A stretch of 64,000 nt of DNA from Paracyclopina nana (taxonomy: Eukaryota > Arthropoda > Copepoda > Cyclopoida > Cyclopettidae). The DNA lies in the NCBI GenBank assembly GCA_019096065.1, contig JAGUCH010000006.1:2004001-2068000 (forward strand), in the 5' to 3' direction. Made by a program: the position numbers and the translations under genes. The notes under the pieces are model-generated. The model had not been told where the DNA came from and searched no databases. It saw only the letters and a program-made list of their open reading frames with translations. Of the stretch, positions 27,201-54,965 are shown piece by piece (the stretch's first letter is position 1; each line of letters opens with the position of its first letter).

Positions 27201-30200
27201 AAATGACCGACAAATTTTTGGTGATGGGTGCGTTTTTTGCCCGACACATTTGGCATAGTTGTAAAATGACCGACAAATTTTTTGGCGACGGGTGCGTGTT
27301 TTGCCCGACACATTTGGTATAGTTGCAAAATGACCGAAAACTGTTGGAAATGGCCATGTGAAAAGTCCAACAAGTGTAATTTGTGTGACAATATTTTTTG
27401 GCTGTTTTACGAAGTCCCAATATCAATTTGCAAGTAATGAAAAGTCTGGTTTCTCTGTTTCTCATCATTTTGCTAAGTGGCTCATATAACTCAGCTAAAA
27501 CTTAACAAAAGTTGAGTATTTTGTGGCGGCATTTGGATAAGCTTATTCATTGTTGAAACAGCACTTCAAATTGTTCCACAATGAACTACGTTGAGTCACA
27601 AGGCAAGAAATCCGGATCAAAAATATTTATCAGTGACGACTACCAGTACATCAAAAACAGGACAAGAGGAGAGAAATTTTACCTTACGTAAGTTACAAAT
27701 CGTATATTTTGATAAAGTTTAACATTGCCTTTATAGATGTCAACTTCGAACTTGTCATGGAACAGGCTGCATTAACTTGCTAACGCAAGTTCTGAAGCAC
27801 CTTAAACCTCACAATCATCCCATTGAGGAATATGGAAAGGTGAAGCATGATTTGAGGTCAGAGTTGCTTAATGCCGCCCAAGCTCAGTCGAGACTAACAA
27901 CTAGGGAGATTTTCAATGATGTCACAAGAAATCATCCAGGGGGCCATCTACTGACCTACAGGCAAATGAGCTCAGGAATGAATGCCAGGAGGCGTGTAGC
28001 TATACCAAAGAGGCCTCAAACTGCTGCTGAGTTTGTAGAACGAATCCATCACACGGAGAGACTGCAACAATACTTTGTCAGGGAAGTAAAAAATGATGAT
28101 GGTGAAGTCATTGCAGCTATATTTGGTCACCAGGACCTAATCCAAGCTTTTAGCAATGCAGACTTGGTTTTGTTTGATGGCACATTTTTTACTGTACCGT
28201 CACCGTTTTATCAGCTTTTCAACCTAATGTTTGAAGCTGGTGGTAGCTTTTTCCCTGCATTCAATATCTTAATGGTGGGAAAATCATTTGATGAATATCT
28301 TTGTGTGTTCCAAGCGATACGAGAGATTGTTCCCAATTTTTCTCCTACCAAATGTATGGCAGATTTTGAAAGGGCATCTAGAAATGCCATGAAAGCTGTT
28401 TTTCCAGGCGTTAGAGTATCAGGCTGTTTATTTCATTTTAGCAGAAATGTCTTCAAACATGTTCAAAAACTGAAACTTTGCAAACAGTTCACAAAAAATT
28501 CCTTCTTTCGTAAATGGGTGAAGATGCTCATGTCATTGGCAATGCTACCAGCAAATGCCATTCATGAAAGTCATGACCAATTGCTTGTCATGAAGGCCCA
28601 AATCATTGATTTTTCACCTGAGGATCTAGTCAACTTAAATAGATTTTGCACTTACTTTGAGAGAACTTGGATTTCTGGAATTTCTCCGGAGGATCTGTCA
28701 GTTTTTGGACTCGAGCATGCAACTAATAATGGCTGTGAGTCTTATCATTCATGGCTGAAGCAGACGATCAAGACTCACAGGCCAAATGCTTTCAACTTTA
28801 CCTTAACTTTGAATTTAATTTTCGAAGACAAAGCACTTGATTTTCATCGTTACATTTTAAGCAATGGGAATCCCATTAACAGAGAGCGTAGGAGAGCTGT
28901 AACTGAAAATCTTGATAGACGTCGAGCAGCCGAAGCTATCCTTGAAGTTAATGCTATTACCAACCTCGAATTTCTTAAGACAGTCAGTCATACTTTGGAT
29001 GGTCAAGTACGAGAACTACAACTACGCTTACGCCGAAATCCTTTAATTTTGCAGGATGATCCAGAAGTTGTGGATATCAACAACATTAGTGAGGAAGATG
29101 AGATTCCTGACAACCCTGATGAAAATGCAAATGAAGAGCCTGACGACATTCAATCTGATAACTCTTGTTTGATTTGTACTGGTCCCAGGGATGGGCACCA
29201 TGCCTTTGTCCCATGTGGGCATGCCATTGCCTGCCAAAACTGCTGCAATCGGATAATGCTAGATGATGAGCCGCGATGCCCCTATTGTCGCACTTCAGCA
29301 ACAAATGTCATTAGGGTTAGGATTCAAACTTTATAAGCTGAAGTGATTCTGCAATCTTTAGGGTTTGGCTTCTATGTATTTAGTCAAACTTGTGCATTAT
29401 TTTTTTGTTCTTTTCAATAATGCACAAAGAGGTAAAAGATTGCATGACTTTCATACAAGCTAAAATCCACTGAGAAAGAACAAATTGCTTGTGTGAGAAT
29501 TCCTTCAGCTTTTAAGAGTGTGTAATGCATTTCTTGCATTATTTTAACAATAAAAGCTATTTCTATTTTTAGTGAAATAAATTAGAGCTGAAATATGATA
29601 CAATTTTAACTATGAAAACAAATATTACTCTCTGTAGCCAGTGATCCCTGATGTTTCCAAGACCACTATACTCGTCTTGGTCAAGAGCTTGTCATAAGCG
29701 AGCGAATCTTTGACACACTGAGTCAAGAATTTTGCGTTTCCTTAGCAGTTACGTAGTAGGATAACGCGATGCGCAAGTTTTCACGTATGCGAATTCATAA
29801 GTACAAGTGCATAAGTTTCACTTTGCCTCACATTATGAGTCAAGTTGCCTCAATTAACAGTCGCGAAATCAACGTAGCACATCTTTCTTATTTCCTATAA
29901 GCTATAAATATTGCATCCTAGCACCTGGCAGAGCAAGTAAGAGCAGCCAATTCTATAGCCAAAGTGGTTTTTAAGCAAAAAAGTGGCTGGAAGCCAAACA
30001 AATCCGAAGTACTAATGATGACTATGTTTATTATTTTGGCTATTTTTTCATCTGTAGATAATTATGTTGCCACCTTTTCCGCCATATCCACCTCGGCCAC
30101 CTCGACCTCCACGTCCATATCTTCTAAAGTAGGTAGGTTTCTTCCATTTCTTGCCAAAATCTTCTTCCTCCTCTTCTTCATCAGATGAAGGTTCTCTTTT

Positions 30201-34906: not shown

Positions 34907-37900
34907 ATGAGTGTGAAGCTGAGCAACGATGATCGGGAGGAGGCGAAGAGGTCGGAGGCCGGCGGCGAGGTCACGCAACCTCCGGCCTCGATGACAGCGG
35001 CCGCGGCTCTGGGCATGAACCTGAGCGGTGGCGGTGACGGTGAAGTGGAGGGAGCAGGCGAAGCAGGAGAGGCAGGTGGCGGAGGCAGCGCTGCATGCAG
35101 CAGCACTAAAAGCAGTGGCAGTAGCAGCGCCGGCGACGACGACGTCGACGACGACGAGGACAAGAGGGCCAACGCTCTCATGACCCGTGGGCGGGCGCTA
35201 AAGCAGCAGCAGCTCCTGATGAGCTCAGAATCTAGTCAGACCTCCGACCGAACGGTGGTCAACTCACTACGATCTGCTTCTCAACCACTCGTCGCCACTG
35301 ACACTGCTACCATAACTGCGAACGCCAAACTGATCCTCGCCACTTCTGCCACCAACGCCAACGCCAACCAACACAAGGACGCCAAGATGATCGACGCCTC
35401 CGACTTCAGGATGGTCGACCCGGGATGCTCCTACACCAGCCTCGCCGCGGCCGCCGCCGCCCAACACTCCGCCAACAACGGACGCATGACCCCGCCCCAC
35501 AACCACCACCACGCCCACCACCACCTCCAGCACCATGGCCCCCCCTCCCACCACCACCTGCACCCCTCGCACGCCATGGCGAGCTACGTCAACACCTCCT
35601 ACACCACCCTCACGCCCCTGCAGCCCCTCCCGCCCATCTCCACCATCTCCTCCATGCAGGACAAGTTCACGCCCTACAGCCCCTCGGGCGGACACAACGG
35701 AGGCGGAGGCGGCGGAGACGCCACGCCCACCCACGACGGCCCCTCCGTCTCCGTGGGGAACTTTGTCATGCAGAGCAACCTCTCGCCCTACATGTCCATG
35801 TCCCCGCCCCACTACGCGAGCCACGCCTCCGCCGCAGCCGCGGCCCTCGCCATGGGCGCCCACTCGCCGCCCCAGGGCTCCGACGGCCACTACGGGCACA
35901 ACGGCCTTCACTCCAAGCAGGAGCCCCTGAGCCCCAACTCGTACTACGCGTCGGAGCAGCGGCCCTCGCCCGCCCACCACGAGATGTCGCCCCACTCGAT
36001 GGGCGAACACTCCCCCGGCACCAACAACGTCGTGCCCACCTCCACCAGCTACGACCCGCTCACCTCCAACAACAACCCCAGCCTCAATGGGGGTATGACG
36101 AGCCCCCACACCATCAGCCCCGTGCCCCACGCCTCGCCCCTCCTCCACCACAGGGACATGTCCCCGCCCTCGCCCCACGGCAACGGGGCCAGCCTGCTCG
36201 CGGCCGCCGCGGCCTCGGCCATCGGCGGCCACCATGGAGGCCAGCACATGAGCATGGGCAGCTCGACGCCAACCATGGTCACGTTGAAGTCGGCCCCGTC
36301 GAGCAACAACAACAACCAGAGCTCGGGCGGCGAGGCCGAGGAAATCAACACCAAGGAGTTGGCGCAGCGCATTTCAGCTGAGCTGAAACGCTACTCCATC
36401 CCGCAAGCCATTTTCGCGCAGAGGGTCCTGTGTCGGTCGCAGGGCACCCTCTCCGACCTCTTGAGGAATCCCAAGCCCTGGTCGAAGCTCAAGTCTGGTC
36501 GGGAGACATTCAGGCGCATGCAGAAGTGGCTCCAGGAACCGGAGTTCCAGAGGATGTCGGCCCTACGTTTAGCAGGTAAAATCCATTTTTTTCCATATCT
36601 TCATTACTCCCCGCGTTGCGTGTTCACATCCCAAATGGAATGTCGAATCGCCGATCGGGGCAAATATATTTCAACGCTAAGACAGAAAAAAGGGGGGCAA
36701 ACCGGCTCGCTCGCCAACCACCCTTACAATTCTTTTTTTTTCTTTTTTTGGCTGAACAGCTACCAATTTCGTACTGTATGCTACTACAATGCTGGCAATG
36801 TTAATTCCACACTCTTTTTCGACGCCAAAGTCAACAAAATGCCATCAAATGTGTCCCATGACAATCGGTTTCCCCCCGTTGCTTTTCTTTTCAAAAAGTG
36901 GGATTTTATGGTAGAAAAGGAAGGACAATTATCATCATTACCTGCCGCAAAATCGACCTCAAGGGCCGTAGATATTACAAGCATTTGTAGTCGTTGTTTT
37001 CCATAGCTACAAACCCATGAAAACTTACATAAGAGAGAGAGTTTACTGTTGGCTTGTAAATTGGCACCTTGATGTTGCAAAGCCATAAAAATTAAGGGAC
37101 AGATGGATGGAAGAACGCACGGGGTGTTTGCAGGAAACGCGTAGAAAAAAACGCGCGCGTCCCCTTTTGAAGCAAGTGCAGATCGCTCTAGCTCCTGCAC
37201 AAGTTTACAGTTTCATTACATGGATGTCAGTCAATTAATTAAAGAGAGGGAAAGCTCTAATTAAGTCGTCCAGCGATGTCAGTCAAGAGTCCAAAGGATG
37301 CGCAGCGGTGGCTTTCTTGAAACGGCATTCTCAGCCAGTGTGACGAGCCAATTACGTAGAACCAGAAGCCTGTGTGTTCAGATGATTTTGATTTTGTGGG
37401 GCTTGAGCTAAGGTCGCAAGAAACGTTAAAGTCTGTCTGTGACGTACAGCCCCTGCAACCGTGGTGAAAGCCTTTTCTTTTGACTTTTGATGGGTGGAAA
37501 AAAAATCATTCCAACTTCTCAAATGTCACTTTGAAATGGCGTGTGAAATTTCGCAACATTATTAAGCAGCTTCCCAGATAATTCAATCTCGAGAAATTAA
37601 GTGATGGCAAGATTCCGGTCATGTCCGTCCATCGGATCAAAGTTTGCATAGATCTCCTTAATGCTCCGGCTCGGTTGCTTCTTTATTGACAGGGAAAACG
37701 AAGTAATGAAATTAGTTGTTAGCATGCTAATGCAATCACGGAGGAGCTCCGAGGAGGAATCCTTGTCATCGCGCAGAGGATATCCCATCTAAAAATCAAT
37801 GTACGCACAAAAATCGACCTGTTTTTGGGGGTCGATCCTTTAACTTCGATTTTCTAGCTAATCAATGACCTCACTCTCACGACAATCAATTTTCTCAACT

Positions 37901-43900: not shown

Positions 43901-46900
43901 ATTCAATTATTAGCGACCAAATATCGGATGCTAATTAAAGGCCACGCCTGAATATATATCCTCTCTCTCTGTGCGCGCATACAAATGCCACGCATACACA
44001 GATCTGCCAACGTGGAAAGTGTTAATGGGAATTAGGCTAAGTCTCCATTCCGAGTATAATACCAAGGGGCTTAAGAAAACAGGGCAATCAGTCAGAATTA
44101 ATGCTCATATCTCGCGTTGACCACATTATTGTTCCTGGTGGGCTTCTTCTTGTTAGCTGCTGCATTGCCCCTGGCCAGACACATCTCAACAACAACAACA
44201 GCTAGCTAGTAACATATTGGCCAAAGAAAAAAGAGCATCAAGCAGAAAAGCTATTTCTACCATTACTACCCTAGCTACATCGCATACAGCAGTGCAAAAT
44301 AAGCTAGGTATATGTCACAATTGAGATCAGGCAAAGAAAGGAAGCTGAACATGAATCATCTCGCATGCTGCCCCCACTTGCTTAAACATTAAGTTGTTGC
44401 ATGTTCCGAGAGACAGATCACCCTTACAACTTCACGCAATCTAGCACAGGAAAACAAATGAGTGCAGCAGCGCAGTACTGTAGTCAAAAAGTATTCCAAA
44501 TACATTATTCACCTCGCGAGGCGGAGGATTCCTCAATCATTCGGGGAAAAAGAATATAAGGAGGGAAGCTACTTACGAGTCGAGAGCTATGGAGAGATCA
44601 TGCGGGGAAGACAGGCGAGAAAACGGATTGTGAGAAATTCCAAGTACCATTTATTCTGCATACCCATACAGCAGACCCACGCGAGTATTGCACCTTTCTT
44701 TTGCTTGCCAGCCTTGGCAAAGCATCCACCACAGCCAGGTCAAGCTGGAATAATTTTAGATTCCTCCTCGGGGGATAAGGAAAAGATGGGTATGTACAAA
44801 TCGGTAGGAAACGGTCTCATGTCACGCGAACCACATAATTCTTTTTCACACTGCTCCTACTGCAGTTCTACCCCTCTTCCTTCGTTGTAGTAGCCGTAGT
44901 GGTGTAGTACAGGGTGGGGCTGCTCATCTACTTGAGATTCCCCAAGAGCGAGCAATGAGATGGATTAATGAGCCACCACGTTGCTGCTGCTGCCTCTTCG
45001 CATCTGTGGCCACAGGTTACTTTTCCAATCTTTTTCTGATTGAATCTGAAATTAATTGTGGGCTTTCTAATACCATACCGCATAGTATTGCTACAATTTC
45101 GAACAGATGTAATTCTCGTGCGTGTGCCATGTTTCTCGTGGCCGCCGGCTCGAAAATGGAGGGAAAAAAGCTTGAAAAGGGAATTTTCTTGACGCATCGC
45201 CACGGCCCTAATTCCGTGTCATTAGCTTGTTCTCATAAAACTCAGTAAGGCAGGCAGTAAGCAAAGCAAGGCACTTTGGAAGCTCATAACTCAGTAAGTA
45301 CTGAGCCTATTGGAACCAAATTTGGAGGGATTCATAAGAGCGTATTGAAGAATCTTCATGCCAATTTTCATCCGGATCGGAGGTCTCTAAGGGGGTGGCT
45401 GATTTTTCTCCCTTGCTTAACTGATTTGCCTCACTTTCAGTAAGGCGGCCTTAGCGTCCTCCGATCCGGATGAAAATTGACATGAAGATTCTTCAATATG
45501 TTTTTATGAATTCCTTCAATTTTGGTTCCAATCGGACGAGTAGATGCTGAGATATGAGCGCGCAAAGTGCCTTGCTTACCTTATAGAAATGTTTATGAGA
45601 ACAAGCTATTGACGATATAGTAGAAGTAGGCTAGGCTGGCTAGTGAGTGTTATTTGGGGTGAAAAACGATGGAGATTGATGGCGAAAATTGGACACTAGA
45701 TATTGGCCAGTCTTCTCCTTCTGAAAAGAAAACGCGATGACCTAACTAGAAAGCATGCTTCTGCAGTTCCTAATTCTGATATGAAATCCATCTTGATACT
45801 CGAGTTTCTTTCCTCATTAGCGAGCCAGTATATACAGAATGTGGTACAATGTCTCCTAATGATTATTATATGCCGCCTATTGTTATGACCTTCCACGGAC
45901 AATTACGCTGGAGCTGCTGCTCCTATCTTAACTGTTATAGTGTGCTTTCTAAATAGAAAGGACTCAATTTATTCCTGGGAGAAATATTTGCACACTCTGC
46001 AGGAGGGCTTTTCCATTAACTAGACCATTTTTACCTTGTTTTATTTTTCGCCTTGTTTGACTTCAATTTTAACTTAGTTTATACGTATATACCGAGCCTA
46101 CATACTACTAATTGCATTTGCCAGTAGAAAAAACAAAAACAGACCACTTGATCTTGCTTCAAGGCTACAAATGTTTTTTCCGTGATCTCAAGAACCCTTT
46201 TCGTGTTTACAAGGAAGCGCGACAAAAAACGACTTTTTCTGGATAACCTTAGTGCTTTTGTAGCTGGAACCATAAAATGCTGCTCCTGCATCTTTGCCAT
46301 GCCTGCAACCATAATTGCTCTGTCAACTCCTGTTTGCTTCTCCGCTATTTTTAGCTGCCTCTAAATCAATTCAGAAACCACCCAATTCGTGACAAGCGCC
46401 AGTAAGCGGTGATCCAACAGAAAATGTATCATTTGATTTTTCGCATGGTTGGTGACAGGTTGGCCGTATTGCAGCTAACCCTGTAGGTTACTGCAAGGTT
46501 ATCAGGTCAAGGTTGAAAGTGCAGTATCGGGGTGCATTGCTACTACCCCTAATATGGCATACAGTTCCGAAATCGGGATATCGCTTTCCGTTACCGCCGA
46601 CTCCGCTACAGAAAGCTTTCTTTTTTCTGCCATCGAAGTTGTAGTAGCATGGGAAACTTTCTATTATCGGCCGTTGGGTGGTTGAAAGTCTAATCCCGGT
46701 TCCTGGCAGAATCAAACGCAAAGTTGGTTTTTGGTGATTTTGCCAATACTATGAACTAGGATATCCTGCTAATCTGATTTGTTGGCTGTCATCCAAACTA
46801 ATTTTGATTTTGTTTTCATTACAGTTATGCAGCAGTCGGCGACAGAAAAAGAACGAGGCAGATCAGGTAAGATTTCAATATCTATTTTGAATTATCTATG

Positions 46901-49900
46901 CATGCACATTTTGCTTTTTGATTTGCCCGACACAATGAAGTATAATTTTTAACTTGTTAGCAATGATCGTGCTTATTTTTGGAGCCAGGTTCTCTAATTA
47001 GAAAATGGGTGAATTATTAATGACAAATACCACCCATATTCTTGCCCTTGAGAACCAGCCCTCGATGTTACCTCAGCTAGCCGTTTTTCGTTGTTCACAA
47101 TACTGTTACAAACACACAATTTTGTCGTCTTAAACATACACAAACTATTCAGATTTTGGGGTTATGTCTTGCACAAATGGAACGAAGGGTCGAAATCGAC
47201 CGATTTTTAGCCTTTCGCCAGCTATAGGGAAATTGTTCAAATAAGGTGCGCTTTTTCCGATAGAGCAAAATTGAAATTGGAAGGAGGGGGGTCATTTAGG
47301 TGGGACAAATCTGTGACATTTGTTCAAGTGTCAGCTTAGGCAAAATCCTGCAAAACAAGCCCAATTTAGACAGCAAGAAAGTGTGCTCTTGCGCGCGGGG
47401 ATTTCTTTCTTGAAGTCAATTTCCGCGTAAATACCACTGTTCAAATTGAATGAAAACACCTCTCTCTTTTTTCGTCTTATTTGCGCGAGATGTCGAGCTC
47501 GGGAAATGGAATTTTGAAATTCAAACGTAGCAGCAGCAGCAGCAGTAGTCTTGACACCTTCAAGCTGCTTTTCACAATTCCACTGTCCATTTGCATAGAC
47601 CGGACATTGAAGTGCCAAGTTAGCTCCTCTCGCCTTTCAGCAGCTTTGCTTTTCCTCAGCTAATTTCATGTCAAATTAACAAGAGAATTTTCTCAAGAGC
47701 AGGAAAAGAAAGCTGTCATTTTTTCCATTTCCGAGTTCATGCGCCCGATACAAATCCATTGTCTCTGCTATATCTCGCGAGTTCATCAATCAAGAACTCT
47801 GGAGTTGACAATTGAAACGGAAATGAGATCTCAGGTCATTTTCACATCCAGACACACACACACATATATACTATATACCATTGCTACTACAAACACGTAT
47901 CATCCACAATTCTCACAAATTCCATTTTGAATCGAGCATGCGCCTCATTTATTCATTCATTATTGTCAATACATCCTTAATTTTTGACTCATATCATATA
48001 TGTTGTTACACCTTACACACACCTGCAACCCCAACATTTATGGATGTACCAAAAACATACCATATACTACTGCTACTCTAGTTAAACTGCACCCACAAAA
48101 ACAAGCCTCGTAGCATCACCTTAACAGCTCTCAATTTTTTTTGTATGGATGCCCAACCTTGTTTTTGCCATAGCATGCAAGAAAAGTCCGATACGACTTG
48201 GACCTCCTTTTTCGTACTATTATTACCTCTAGATGTTCATTTTTTTTCTTTCACTCCATCAAAATTAAAAGCAAAAGAAAGCAAAATATCGAGAGCCCAA
48301 TTTTCTTCTTTAGGTGAGTCTCATCACAGTCATAGTGCATCTTCAAATAAAAACCGAAGAAAAATCCCCTACAATCCTTGTCCCCCCTCTCATTGGTAAG
48401 TAAAAAACGAAATTGAAATGTCGTACGTCACGTCTAGTACCCACTACAACTACTATACCTCCCATATGGTAATTATTGGTAAGCCTTTTGACAATAATGA
48501 GTTGAAAATGGGATTCATGCTCAGTGACCATTATTTTCGTTTTGGGGCATTGTCATGCCAAATTGGTTTCCCCTTTGTTCGGGTTATAGACATCTTTTGT
48601 TGCCTTTTGATGCATTGACTCCTCTGCCTGATTGGAAAACACAGAGACGAGCCCTAAGCAAATGTACTCTTTGCTGGAGCAACGCTAACGCCAACTTTAA
48701 TCAATGTGTGGAGGCGAAGCCATGCGACCACTCATTATAGATCATCTCCCAATACTAATTGTGCCGACGACCTAGATTTCAAATTCCCAATATTATTTGG
48801 TCACTACTACTACTACGGCTTATGGCTCTCCCTTCTCCTTGGCTCTTCCTTTTTTCCCCAAATTTTGTGGGTTAGTAAGTTATGCACACACCAACCATGA
48901 TCCTATTACCATCAGGAACAGAGCTGAATATTGAATTTGCTTGTTATTGTCAATTGGGATCCTTTCTTACATCCACTAGTAGTAGGAGCAAGAGTTCCCC
49001 TAGGAGGGAATTTCATAATGGAAAATACTCCAGCGTTGTGGCAAAGATCACAGAATTTCCCTGGGGCAAATTTTCTGCCTCAAATTGTCTCTGCTCCGCT
49101 CGTGATTACAAACATTCCAGGCAAACTTTCGTAGATTTGATGAAAAAAACTACTGGCATCCGTTTTTCTTTGTCAAAGGAAGACCTCCTGGTGTGGTATA
49201 CTATGGTGACCCTTTTTGAAAAAGCCAATTTTCCTGCCCGCAACAGCACAGCTCCCAGATGTTGCCGCCACCACCTTGATATTTTTCAAAGCGCTACCAT
49301 TTCCACGCGTGTGATTTTGACACACACAATTCAACTTTGAGGGGAAAAAGTTTAATTAATTCTCGAATTGGCCTTGGGTGCGGACGACTGCTATATGCGC
49401 GCGAGTAATACCACTTGGCGGCCGCTTTTCCGATAATTTCACTCACTCTGGAAGCTCCTCCAAAAAGTTGGTCATACCACTACTGTAGTAGTAGTAAATC
49501 CCTGGAGACTGCATACTACTAAGACACGGGTATAAGCAGGCTTTCACTTTTCCATAAATAAGAGGATCCTCTATCCTCTATTGACATTATGAGAACCTTT
49601 CTGATTTACATACTTCACTAGCTAGCGCGTTGATCTTGCGCCGCATAACGGTGGGTAAATTGGCCCCCAGCTTGAAATATGGATGTGCAATGAAGTGGGG
49701 ACTTTGCTCATGGTCCCATGGGACCTTTCGCAGATCGTGTGCATCTTCAAACGACGGGAGAAGTTTAGATTTGAAACTTTAATAGGAGAGCATTTAGCAA
49801 ATTGGCCCCGCTCGAGCAGAGCACTAGAATTTGGTGCCCACGCAGCTGATGGTGTGGTCATTCCCACAAAATAGATCAGACCATTCCATATGTTTTTACT

Positions 49901-51814
49901 GCAATAGCAGCAGTGGCGGGTAGTATTAGGGAGAGAGGAGCCTGCGACTGATAGATGTTCAAATGGATCCTCTCTGGCTAGGTACATATTCCGACAGTCA
50001 ATTTATGAGCACTTCTTACCCTAGATCAATTCAAGCTAGCTCTCCCAGCAGCTTTTACTGCTTCTTCAGCATGGCTAATTTTCGTGGCCGGAAGGAGGCT
50101 TAGGAGCAAAAAATAATACCTGCAATGCAATGTGTACGTCCCAAATTGGCTCTTTTACACGCTTTTGCCGCATCATCCATATTTCCGAGATAAATCATTG
50201 TGCAACAGCAAAAAAAAGACGAAGCAGTTTTCAAAAAGAGCAACAGCTGGCTTTCCAAGTTGAGTGGAAACCATTTTGTCTCAAATGGTCTGTAAGGAAA
50301 GGGGGGAAAAACGCGGTCAACAATGCAATGGGTGAGAGCTCGGGAAAAAATTCGGTGTTTGCAGCAGTGCACAAAAAGTTGAAGCGTTTTCGGCCATTTT
50401 TCACTGCTTGCCCATGAATCTTGTTTGGTTGACAAAAAGTACACCTATTTTTCAGCTTGCAAGAGGAAAGACGACTCGCCAGACCATCAGCAACAGCCCA
50501 AGAAACCCCGTTTGGTCTTTACGGACCTCCAACGCCGTACACTCCAAGCTATTTTTAAGGTATACCTTTCTAAGTGTTTTCCTACTAGATCTACAAAAAA
50601 TATTCACTACTCTCACCACCGTTTTTTCTCATTCTGTGATATGACACCGATTTCAAGCTGTAGACACAATTGTTGTTGGATTTGTTGTTGATGTTGTTGT
50701 GGCTTCCTCTCGCAAATCCATAATAGTCTCGTCACCAAAAAAACCAAACAGAAAGAGGCATCCTTCAGCCGACATGTATACCATTTTTGCGCACTTTCGG
50801 ACTTGAATTTAGATGTGAGTGATCAGGGCACTTTGGCACCGTTTATCAAGCAAACTTTAATGGCTTCTTCATCAACGGCAAACCTTTCTCTTGATTGCGC
50901 AGGAGACGAAACGTCCCTCCAAAGAGATGCAAGTTTCAATCGCCAGGCAATTAGGACTTCAGCCCACCACAGTGGGCAACTTTTTCATGAATGCCCGGAG
51001 GCGACTGCATGACAAATGGCAGAGTAGTGATCAGCAGCAAGATCAGCATGTTGGTGCCAAACTCGAGAACAATAACGACAATACTAGCAGCAGTTGTAGC
51101 AATAATTCTAGCTCGCATCACGACATGGCGGCCTTGATGCTCGAAGAGTACTCAGACCACCACGCTGGCCACCATCACCACCCGGCGGCCGACCTCAACG
51201 CGGACGGCTTCACTTTGGAGTCGTTGGCGAGTCTGCATGCCGAAGAGGCTGACAATCATCATCATCAGCAGCAGCAGCATCTTCATGATGAGCAGCTACG
51301 GCCATCAGTATGTGATACTAGCGAAGCCGTGGGCAACTCCAATAACTCTTGTGTCTACTCCTTGACCTCGCTGTGATCCGTGCTTTATTACGAAATGTCC
51401 CACACGCGCGCATCCTCTCATTTGTAGGAGACCAAAAGGCCCTCGAAGGAGATGCAGGTGACGATTGCCAGGCAACTCGGCCTCGACCCCTCCACTGTGT
51501 CCAACTTCTTCATGAACGCGCGACGCAGATCCGTTGACAAGTGGAAGGACGACCGGGCCATGGACGCCGATGACAACATGAGCGAGTCCGAGGACAACGA
51601 GGACAACGAAAATTCGGCCTCCTCGCCCCCGCCGCCCTTCAATCACCACCACCACAATCACAGTCAGCGGAGCAGCTACGGTCAAGAAATGTCGATAAAA
51701 AATGCCGTCCTTGTGACGGCCGCCGGCGGCCACGGAGGCCACCCTGCGGCCGTCGTCCAACACCTCCAAGGCCACGGGGAGGCGATGACCCCGACCGCGG
51801 CCTTGGACTTATGA
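34907..51814 (+). CDS. onecut: Onecut (HNF6-type CUT-homeodomain transcription factor)
   Basis: Exon 1 (34907-36575) encodes 556 residues: an acidic/Gly-Ser N-terminus, then His-, Ala- and Pro-rich low complexity (HHHAHHHLQHHG), and a complete CUT domain at its end (EEINTKELAQRISAELKRYS through EPEFQRMSALRLA). After a 13.9-kb intron, exon 2 (50456-50559) encodes ACKRK, a basic linker and the first part of the homeodomain (KKPRLVFTDLQRRTLQAIFK), ending in phase 0. Two different terminal exons follow, 50903-51376 and 51428-51814. Each begins in phase 0 with ETKRPSKEMQ and each completes the homeodomain, including the Onecut-type recognition helix NFFMNARRR with Met50 and Asn51. Because each carries its own stop, only one can be used per mRNA. 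The protein should be a nuclear DNA-binding regulator, as in neurons and photoreceptors of other animals. Confidence 0.95.
39478..39501. repeat. (CTG)n microsatellite
   Basis: Eight perfect CTG units, in the long onecut intron. Confidence 0.9.
40124..40148. repeat. (CAG)n microsatellite, interrupted
   Basis: CAG units with a single TAG interruption, in the long onecut intron. Confidence 0.9.
45223..45608. repeat. 386-bp palindromic (foldback/MITE-like) element
   Basis: The left end TAGCTTGTTCTCATAAA and the right end TTTATGAGAACAAGCTA are exact reverse complements. The similarity continues inward with gaps: GCAAGGCACTTT against AAAGTGCCTTGC, and CCAATTTTCATCCGGATCGGA against TCCGATCCGGATGAAAATTG. 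The whole unit can fold into one long imperfect hairpin with a short loop near 45,400. No ORF. It is best read as a non-autonomous inverted-repeat element in the onecut intron. A transcribed hairpin giving small RNAs is possible, as this intron is transcribed. Confidence 0.82.
50903..51376 (+). CDS. onecut: Onecut alternative terminal exon A (divergent half-homeodomain)
   Basis: Acceptor TTGCGCAG|GAG, phase 0, TGA at 51374-51376; 157 residues. The homeodomain half ends GLQPTTVGNFFMNARRRLHD: Gly stands at the position usually held by Ser before NFFMN, and Leu-His follows the Arg cluster. The tail is rich in Asn, Ser, His and Gln (HHHHQQQQ-type runs) with an acidic segment. No AATAAA lies between its stop and exon B, so an mRNA using it would carry exon B as 3' UTR. 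Confidence 0.88.
   Translation, partial: ETKRPSKEMQVSIARQLGLQPTTVGNFFMNARRRLHDKWQSSDQQQDQHVGAKLENNNDNTSSSCSNNSSSHHDMAALMLEEYSDHHAGHHHHPAADLNADGFTLESLASLHAEEADNHHHQQQQHLHDEQLRPSVCDTSEAVGNSNNSCVYSLTSL
51428..51814 (+). CDS. onecut: Onecut alternative terminal exon B (canonical half-homeodomain)
   Basis: Acceptor ATTTGTAG|GAG, phase 0, TGA at 51812-51814; 128 residues. The homeodomain half ends GLDPSTVSNFFMNARRRSVD, matching the usual Onecut pattern (STVSNFFMNARRRS-x-DKW). The tail is acidic (DDNMSESEDNEDNE), then Pro- and His-rich. It begins only 51 bp after the stop of exon A. Its tail shares no obvious similarity with that of exon A. Confidence 0.92.
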   Translation, partial: ETKRPSKEMQVTIARQLGLDPSTVSNFFMNARRRSVDKWKDDRAMDADDNMSESEDNEDNENSASSPPPPFNHHHHNHSQRSSYGQEMSIKNAVLVTAAGGHGGHPAAVVQHLQGHGEAMTPTAALDL

Positions 51815-52746
51815 GGACGCGGCCAAGCTTTGGCTCATTGACGCTTGACCTCCAGTGCTTTAAACAAAGAGGGGCCTTCACACACAACTCAGTTACCTGC
51901 AAAACTCCTTCATTATTTTTCTACGGGGCAGCCAGTCGTCGCGATTTAATATCATCATCATCATCCTGTTGGCTTTAAAATATTTGTATTCTACGACATC
52001 ACATACTTCTATACCTGCTAGATATCAAACAAATATGGTTTAGCCCTCCCTCCCCCGGCCACCAAATATTTCCGCAAAATCACCACCCGCCGCGCCGCGA
52101 TGGAAGCTAGAGGCTCTCTACCTTCAAGTAAATGTGTATAAATGAGATAAAAGAGCACTACTACCCCCTCCCTGAATTATATAATCAGATCTTTAAAGAA
52201 ATCTCAATGAAGATTGTGTCACACTTGCAACAACACTAAAAGGAAACATATGCTAGTCGATCTGGATGAGCCAAAGCTATTATTACGCCAATTATGGTCT
52301 CAAAACGAAACTAATTTGAGCTAGTCCTTTTTCAGTTTTTTCATTATCAGCAACTTTTTTTACTAGTCCCCTCGATCTTGTGCATTACGTTTATTGAACG
52401 ATCTCACACAAACATTAGAATTGTGTTTTTAGTCATCATACTACATGGAAAAATTATTGTTCTAGTCCAAGCAAAACAACAACAACCTTCAACATGTATT
52501 CATCTCCAGACTTTGCGAAACATTCCAAAAATGCATATCTTATATATAACTATATAGCTATTATTATTATACTACTACAATAATTAATTTGACTTTTGCG
52601 TGAGCTTATGCGACCTCTTTCAGTTCAAGAGCACCTCTACAGTACGGAATCTATTATTGATTATTATTACTATGATGGAACAGATGAAGAAACAAAGAGC
52701 ACCAATAAACATCATGTTACTATATATAAAAAGTTAGCAGACTCCT
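51815..52746. other. Convergent 3' ends of onecut and the SLC22-like gene
   Basis: 932 bp between the two stop codons, AT-rich and without a gene. AATAAA occurs on the plus strand near 52703 and on the minus strand (as TTTATT) near 52390. If both are used, the 3' UTRs overlap. Confidence 0.5.
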
Positions 52747-54965
52747 CTAAAAGCAACAACCTGGCCGTCTCCACAAAGTGTCTCCTTTGCCCATTTCTTC
52801 GCCCTCTTCGATCGTATCGGGCAATTTGTGGTCAGCCGTCTCCGGCAAAAAGCTCACCAAAAACCTGCAAAAAGAAAAACCCGAAAAGAAAAGCACGATT
52901 TAACTTCAACGTCTTTTGCTGCACTCACGCGGCCACTAAAGCAACGCCACCGAATACAGCAATCGGCAGTCGAGGCTCAAACGAAGCTAATGATGCGATG
53001 TAAGGAGCTAGCATGGGCCCCACCCTTGCCTAGAAGAAGAAGCAAAAAATGCGGTAATTGAGAGGGCTCAACCACTGCAGCTGCAAGAAAGAAAGCTTGC
53101 CCAAACTGAAGACGATCCTATGCCCACGTTCCTGATGACTGTAGGAAATATTTCGGCAGAGTAAACGTAGCAAAGCGCAAGTGTACCCGTGCTGCTCGCA
53201 CGTCCTATGATGTTGAGGACGATCAGTGGCCATTCGTAGCCCCTGGAAAAAATATGAAAGCTCCTGCTGATTTTCATGCCAAATGAGTGTGACTACTTAC
53301 GTTGGCACGGCTATGGTAGCCAGCAAGGCAAAGCCGCAAATGACGTACAAAATGAGGAGAGTCAAACGACGACCAGCCTTCAGTAGCAAGAAAATGACCA
53401 GAATAATCGCAGGAAACTCCATAGCTGTAATGATGAGTTGAATATGGCTCCATTTGTCATCCGCATAATTATCTTGAAAGGTACCTGCCTTTTCCGAAGC
53501 AAAAGTAGACAAATAACGAATCGCCAGAACCATTGCTATTCAATGTGAGCCCATAGTAAATTAGGGAAGTGGCAAACCATAAGTAATACGTGATCATGGT
53601 CTGTAATATTCTATTGAAAAATATATGTGTCTTGAGGAAGGTTTTTTGCATTTTTACCTTCACTCTCAAATTGGGTGTTTTGAACAGCTCGAGAAATCCC
53701 AACAGTCCTCGACCTTTGGCATGGTGCTCAGTTATTGGAGGCGAATGCAATTTGAAGCTGTCGGCCAGAGGCCGTCCGTTGAAATCTGCAATTTTTCGCA
53801 AAATCTGCTCGGCCTCCGCAGTGCGACCCTGGGCTAGCAGCCACCGAGGTGATTCCGGCAAAATCCAATATGTGACGTACAAAGCTATGAGAGGCACAGA
53901 GAAGACCAGCTCCATTTGGTGCCAATCTGGAATCAGGTAAGCAATCACAGCCACTGCGAAGCCCCAAAAGGCATAATTCAAGTGAGGGGCACAGCCAAAA
54001 ATGGTTTTGGTCTTCCCGGACAAGATCTCCATCATCCAACAATACATGACTGTACCAAAGCCGATGGAAGAGAATCCGCAGAACCAAATTCCAGCCAGGA
54101 AGAAAGCATAGTTGGGCGAAAAGGCGGTCAATGTTCCGCACATGATATTTATAGTGAGCATCACCATCATTGTTTTAACTCGGCCAAATCTGCAAATTAT
54201 CATTAAACATTTTTTTGGGTTTGATTTGATATGATAAACCTGTCCGAGATGAGACCAGAGGCAAATACTCCACACAAGAGACCAAAAAAAGTGACTTGCT
54301 GCGTCCACTTGTCCATGTGGGCGTCATCACACACCAAATTAAAGTCCTATTAATGAATTTTCCAATTATCATTGGCAATTGGCAATAGGCTCATGAAAAC
54401 TCACTTGCACGATGGTTCGCTCCCAAAAAGATCGATCATATTGGAAGCTTACACAAGCACGAAATTTATTGGATTCAACTGCTGTGTTGTAATCCGGATT
54501 TTCTGCAGAAAGAGAAACATTTTATCAGGGTTACAATTGCTGAAAATTGCCAAGTTATGATACTATTTACCGGAGTGGTTTGAGCCGAACTTTTTCCAAT
54601 CAATGTCGTACATATGGCAATTATCGGGTCCACTGATATTCCTCCAAAGCTCCTCATCAGCGATTTGGCTTTCGCACCAAAAATCAGTCGGAGCCCTAAT
54701 TTCGCAGATGATTTTTAACAATAGAGAGAAAGCTACCAATTATGACTTACCGAAAAAATACCATGTTCAACAGATGGAAGCTGGCAGGAAGCCAAATCAC
54801 CAGGATGATGTACATACACTTTCTTAATTGCCATTTTCCCGTTCCACCTATGGCGTTAATGATCTGCTCCTTTACATCCTTCAACTTTTCAATATCATGC
54901 TCCAGGTCTTCTTCAAAGACCTTCATGCTAAATTTCCACCCATGCTTTACAGGCTCAGTTGTCAT
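52747..54965 (-). CDS. SLC22-family organic ion transporter (MFS)
   Basis: Ten exons (54751-54965, 54571-54695, 54405-54502, 54240-54346, 53658-54189, 53489-53600, 53301-53424, 53101-53242, 52929-53029, 52747-52864) give 557 residues, the usual size for organic cation/carnitine transporters. A cytosolic N-terminus leads into TM1 (CMYIILVIWLPASFHLLNMV). The extracellular loop holds WCES, DNCHMYD and FRACVSF cysteines. MFS motif A is GLISDRFGRVKT after TM2. LPESPRWLLAQGR follows TM6, GRRLTLL lies between TM8 and TM9, and YSAEIFPTVIRNVGIG is the family motif near TM10-11. The C-terminus has LPETADHKLPDTIEEGEE, the SLC22 tail signature. It should act as a plasma-membrane transporter of organic ions; the substrate cannot be read. 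Two introns start with GC rather than GT (TGG|GCAAGC at 53100/53095 and AAG|GCAGGT at 53488/53483). Confidence 0.92.

Follow-up and report, generated by a model that had tools for sequence, protein, structure and literature searches.

A copepod Onecut gene with two alternative exons for the second half of its homeodomain

Can a single Onecut gene carry two versions of the second half of its homeodomain and choose between them by splicing? This question is raised by a gene on the + strand of a 64,000-nucleotide stretch (the window) of the genome of the copepod Paracyclopina nana (JAGUCH010000006.1, positions 2,004,001 to 2,068,000), which belongs to contig 6 in an assembly of ten contigs and 92 Mb. 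The exon encoding the first part of the homeodomain (exon 2) is followed by two exons, called A and B here, which both complete the homeodomain and both end at a stop codon of their own. The reading proposed, to which we assign a probability of roughly 0.75, is that this single-copy gene makes two proteins by joining exon 2 to either of two downstream 3' splice sites. The parts concerned are the following, in positions of the window:

34907..36575, + strand: exon 1 of Onecut as modelled from its open frame and splice fit, from the ATG (MSVKLS...) to the CUT domain
50456..50559, + strand: exon 2, from splice fit, with the remainder of the linker and the homeodomain to residue 21 (KKPRLVFTDLQRRTLQAIFK)
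50903..51376, + strand: exon A, with homeodomain residues 22-60 (..LQPTTVGNFFMNARRRLHDKW) and a 118-residue tail rich in N, H and Q that ends in SCVYSLTSL, then TGA
51377..51427, + strand: gap of 51 nucleotides between the stop of exon A and exon B, read in the sequence and containing the acceptor of exon B
51428..51814, + strand: exon B, with homeodomain residues 22-60 (..LDPSTVSNFFMNARRRSVDKW) and an 89-residue tail with PAAVVQHL that ends in TPTAALDL, then TGA

Exon 1 encodes the CUT domain (36335-36565; 122.5 bits against a cut-off of 24.4) and ends in phase 1 at 36575 (LA/G, the slash marking the exon border). Exon 2 is bordered by AG/CTTGC and AAG/GTATAC; its last residues are LQAIFK, and it ends in phase 0. 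Exon A (157 amino acids, from GCGCAG/GAG to CTG TGA) and exon B (128 amino acids, from TTGTAG/GAG to TTA TGA) both start in phase 0, and the modelled proteins count 748 (A) and 719 (B) residues. In the parts from the CUT domain to the end (271 amino acids for A and 242 for B), the Pfam domains PF02376 (118.3 and 118.6 bits, respectively) and PF00046 (42.9 and 44.9 bits) both score over their cut-offs, and the single CUT domain N-terminal to a homeodomain places the gene in the Onecut family. The recognition helices of A and B contain the motif NFFMNARRR, with F48 and M50, which we take to be the defining residues of the Onecut homeodomain, and with the RR pair (R54/R55). This pair is described for ONECUT2 in the parts covered of a structural study (PMC11490551). 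Among solved structures, 2d5v, 8t0f, 8t11 and 1s7e are the sole four matches of the A homeodomain at E<=1e-5, and the same four top the 33 matches of exon B at E<=1; the best solved relatives of both halves are HNF6 and ONECUT2.

Searched in six frames, the 92 Mb assembly yielded only two second-half homeodomain exons, A and B, and a query with the whole Onecut homeodomain returned nothing beyond exon 2, A and B at E <= 0.001. One of ten CUT matches in the assembly is the gene in the window; the nine others fall into three groups of three, with two groups at other places on contig 6 and the third on contig 4, presumably as in multi-CUT genes. A second Onecut gene as the source of the exons is ruled out by these assembly-wide homeodomain and CUT searches. 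Likewise, chance matches or misassembly are ruled out, since both exons recur in relatives (see below).

How old is the pair? The homeodomain halves of A and B are identical at 33 of 39 residues, the differences lying at homeodomain positions 33, 41, 43, 46, 56 and 57, and at 84 of 117 bases. Fifteen of the 39 codons are identical, 18 differ silently and six change the residue. When 33 changes, the number of bases that differ, were placed at random on exon A, the 5000 trials gave a mean of 20.7 residue changes and a minimum of 13, and never six or fewer. The proportion of differing sites is 0.77 for synonymous sites (pS) and 0.14 for nonsynonymous sites (pN); since synonymous change is saturated, the duplication is old. 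The 60 bases upstream of A and those upstream of B are unrelated (12/60 identical). Being homologous, adjacent and equal in phase, A and B qualify as tandem-duplicated exons. The original prediction had described two phase-0 exons preceded by AG, each completing the homeodomain with its own stop, six differences over 39 residues amid many silent changes, and an old duplication kept under selection; the first of these points can be read directly in the sequence, and the counts given here bear out the others.

Relatives were sought in three protein searches, of which the best 120 of 925, 492 and 773 matches were listed, together 259 proteins (numbered with a P below). As A and B served as queries, this set is biased, and it is heavy in arthropods. 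The clearest case is Lepeophtheirus salmonis, in which the predicted Onecut isoforms X2 (P0001) and X4 (P0111) have the same sequence for 673 residues from the start, up to and including the exon 2 part. Thereafter, X2 has an A-like end (37/39, with IYSLTSL), whereas X4 has a B-like end (39/39, with GPAAVVQHL...ALDL). In Tigriopus californicus, a single gene model (TCAL_16350, P0121) holds both types in succession: first an A-type stretch, matching at 27 of the 31 visible residues, then a B-type half (37/39). The two species are podoplean copepods of different orders, and both exon types are thus kept across species. Six further A-type proteins (ena or jgi) match at 39/39 (P0162, P0179, P0188, P0203) or 38/39 (P0243, P0254). 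In all six, a Q directly precedes the exon, matching CAG/GAG, and the sequence farther upstream is unrelated and apparently unspliced. All six also have SLTSL, where two of them stop; the other four (P0162, P0203, P0243, P0254) continue through a W, as if the gene caller had read TGA as tryptophan. The motif RRRL[HN]DK occurs in eight of the 259 listed proteins, and [YR]SLTS in those same eight. The B-type half (PSTVSNFFMNARRRS[VI]DKW) is present in six of the 259, of which three have PAAVVQHL and four end in ALD(G)L. In sum, exon A is backed by P0001, P0121, P0162, P0179, P0188, P0203, P0243 and P0254, and exon B by P0111, P0121, P0184, P0189, P0199, P0202 and P0185. Given the A type in L. 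salmonis, in T. californicus and in six further proteins, exon A is, judging from these comparisons, a conserved coding exon, which answers the concern whether it is conserved in frame. The existence of alternative second homeodomain halves with separate C-termini is supported both by the anatomy of the gene and by these relatives.

Exon A could instead be a tandem duplicate in decay, seldom if ever included by splicing, leaving B as the only functional exon. The six ena or jgi proteins, being unspliced readings, would fit such a decay, and among the matches listed no short contig was found that joins exon 2 to A. However, seven relatives match exon A at 37-39 of 39 residues, T. californicus matches it at 27 of the 31 that are visible, SLTS is located close to the end of the tail in all eight, and silent changes between A and B are in strong excess. 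Moreover, A and B are equally far from the insect sequence, and decay of A is, hence, very improbable. The same comparison overturns the idea in the original prediction that B is canonical and A diverged. Each matches the insect half at 35 of 39 residues, with changes at 33, 41, 56 and 57 in A and at 41, 43, 46 and 57 in B. TTVGNFF, the form of A, is even the commonest, at 168 of 260 places in the listed proteins against 8 for STVSNFF, albeit in a set biased by the A and B queries. Vertebrate HNF6 has STVSNFF, and the exact insect-type half was encountered 149 times in the listed proteins. Among the 16 named species with more than one fetched protein among the best matches listed, 12 have a single homeodomain half. 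The A/B pair was found in L. salmonis and a one-residue variant in D. ananassae; Limulus and Tachypleus have three halves each (SQDKW forms), none of A or B type, which probably belong to several different genes.

Are both exons joined to exon 2? The exon 2 stretch leads directly into a B-type half in P0111, P0184, P0189, P0199, P0202 and P0185, and into an A-type half in P0001, the predicted L. salmonis isoform, which is the sole case of a join between exon 2 and A. In P0202, on a 1655-base contig, the CUT domain, the linker exon, the exon 2 part and B stand in a single frame. In P0189, on a 1628-base contig, a stretch homologous to 48314-48395 of the window is joined to the exon 2 part and B. 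Because, in the window, 13.9 kb separate the CUT exon from exon 2 and 2.1 kb separate the 48314-48395 stretch from it, both contigs most likely derive from mRNA. In the T. californicus model P0121, A is joined to B within one gene model. In the window, the stop in exon A would forbid a protein with both halves, unless a donor inside A is used; candidate donor-like sites within exon A are found at 51027, 51312 and 51373.

In the proposed mechanism, use of the near 3' splice site would join exon 2 to A, completing the homeodomain with ..TTVGNFFMNARRRLHDKW and adding the tail that ends in SLTSL. Translation would stop at the stop codon of exon A, with exon B probably retained as 3' untranslated sequence. 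Use of the far site would skip A and join exon 2 to B, yielding ..STVSNFFMNARRRSVDKW and the tail with PAAVVQHL...ALDL. The stop in A would suffice, with no additional machinery, to give each protein either the A or the B half but not both. Both forms would have in common the CUT domain, the homeodomain to residue 21 and the residues reported as DNA contacts in ONECUT2, and their binding sites are most likely closely similar. What may set them apart is the stability of the homeodomain or its contacts with partners (positions 33, 41, 43, 46, 56 and 57) and, above all, the C-terminal tails. The use of both exons in P. nana and a functional difference between the forms may be presumed, as may a common polyadenylation site, for which there is one candidate:

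52704..52709, + strand: AATAAA, the sole one on this strand from exon 2 to 54000 in a pattern scan for AATAAA/ATTAAA; candidate poly(A) signal common to both isoforms

The 51-nucleotide gap, which probably also holds the branch point of exon B, and the position of the next AATAAA at 52704 suggest, as the simplest reading, a single terminal region in which two 3' splice sites compete. Alternatively, A and B could be alternative last exons with separate poly(A) sites, the transcript being cleaved between them without a common 3' end. This is the usual layout of alternative last exons, and the pattern scan would miss non-canonical signals. Nevertheless, only 51 nucleotides separate the stop of A from B, and the scan found no AATAAA or ATTAAA from exon 2 to 52704, making separate sites unlikely.

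Would the choice between the two splice sites also alter DNA binding? According to the parts covered of a report on the ONECUT2-DNA crystal structure (PMC11490551), the homeodomain contacts the backbone through R450, T469 and N472 and the bases through N476, R479 and R480. These residues map to homeodomain positions 25, 44, 47, 51, 54 and 55, where A, B, the insect sequence and OC2 all agree (R25, T44, N47, N51, R54 and R55). As the reported contact residues are the same, changed DNA recognition by the A/B swap is weakened as a proposal, and similar DNA motifs would be expected for the two forms. That the switch alters which DNA sequences Onecut recognises, as described for exon 18b of FOXP1 and its forkhead domain in the parts covered of PMC11701043, is an improbable alternative. 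It could draw on that precedent and on the six differences in 39 residues, including 43 and 46, which adjoin contact residues 44 and 47; yet the six residues matching the contacts are unchanged in all four sequences, and G and S at position 46 are each found in other Onecuts. Since the homeodomain is said, in the abstract of the ONECUT2 study, to stabilise the complex (PMC11490551), binding strength is a reasonable target for the switch. Judging from the sequences compared, the switch between A and B probably swaps tails and tunes the homeodomain rather than changing the DNA motif.

Further variation is possible upstream of exon 2, in the linker between the CUT domain and the homeodomain:

46825..46866, + strand: possible optional linker exon of 42 nucleotides, phase 1-1, reading VMQQSATEKERGRS between CUT and homeodomain

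This segment was found with tblastn by searching the window intron with the L. salmonis linker (E 2.4e-6); it has AG/GT borders and joins in frame, and its peptide VMQQSATEKERGRS is also present in P0001, P0111 and P0202. It possibly lengthens the linker, which would be reminiscent of the alpha and beta forms of HNF6 (see below). The segment at 48314-48395 (82 nucleotides, bounded by AG...GT) runs on into exon 2 as VSLITVIVHLQIKTEEKSPTILVPPLI but does not keep the frame of exon 1. It is matched in P0189 (71% over 24 residues) and may serve as a first exon lacking CUT or as an exon that breaks the frame. Elsewhere in the window, open frames at 52860-54500 on the - strand resemble an MFS-type membrane transporter, and a 537-residue open frame at 27723-29333 resembles a MULE-type transposase, both as judged by eye.

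A broader proposal, which is tentative, is that of an ancient, copepod-wide switch that would give the single Onecut gene two regulatory proteins with unrelated effector tails and with homeodomains that differ at positions 33-57, the split having begun at residue 57 (H vs V). This residue is the sole difference in the homeodomain half between P0185 and P0151/P0156, which have the linker sequence in common and different tails. Vertebrates have three Onecut genes; if the proposal is true, splicing in copepods does what vertebrates do with these three genes.

The absence of any described Onecut of this kind, claimed by the original prediction, holds only in part. Titles and abstract openings on Onecut, alternative homeodomain exons and copepods, with subscription journals mostly outside the coverage, did not describe the arrangement. 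In the parts covered of a 2023 review of CUT genes (PMC10515288), Cux isoforms are described and such Onecut exons are absent. However, L. salmonis isoforms with both ends are already present in public protein databases. These X2 and X4 forms (P0001, P0111), compared as proteins, resemble those of the window gene in both ends, in the homeodomain halves and in the terminal motifs; they are predicted isoforms for which the limited literature search found no published description. Drosophila onecut and HNF6/ONECUT2 share with the window gene the single CUT domain, the F48/M50 homeodomain, KRPSKE, NFFMNARRR and the domain order. Splicing of an Onecut gene has a parallel in HNF6, for which the title of a 1998 paper by Lannoy reportedly announces alpha and beta isoforms and alternative splicing that changes DNA-binding properties. 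These isoforms differ in the linker, not in the homeodomain or the C-terminus, and the possible linker exon in the window would be the counterpart.

To our knowledge, it is uncommon for a splice choice to exchange part of a DNA-binding domain, the best-known cases being those of vertebrate FOXP1 and of fly zinc-finger genes. An alternative terminal exon that starts in the middle of the homeodomain, and that copepods of different orders have retained, would be a natural paired experiment: the CUT domain and the reported DNA contacts are equal, whereas the helix surface and the tail differ, and the pair could, thus, separate the contributions of homeodomain surface and tail to Onecut function. 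In Drosophila lola, broad and ttk, a common N-terminus is combined with alternative 3' exons carrying the DNA-binding parts, and whole sets of zinc fingers are swapped. In contrast, the homeodomain itself is split by the splice site in the Onecut gene of the window. Judging from the sequence and the parts covered of the FOXP1 study, the nearest precedent found is FOXP1, where the alternative exons 18 and 18b also swap part of one factor's DNA-binding domain; there, a forkhead is affected and the motif altered, whereas in Onecut the exchange concerns terminal exons of a homeodomain, leaves the reported contacts unchanged and swaps the tails as well (PMC11701043).
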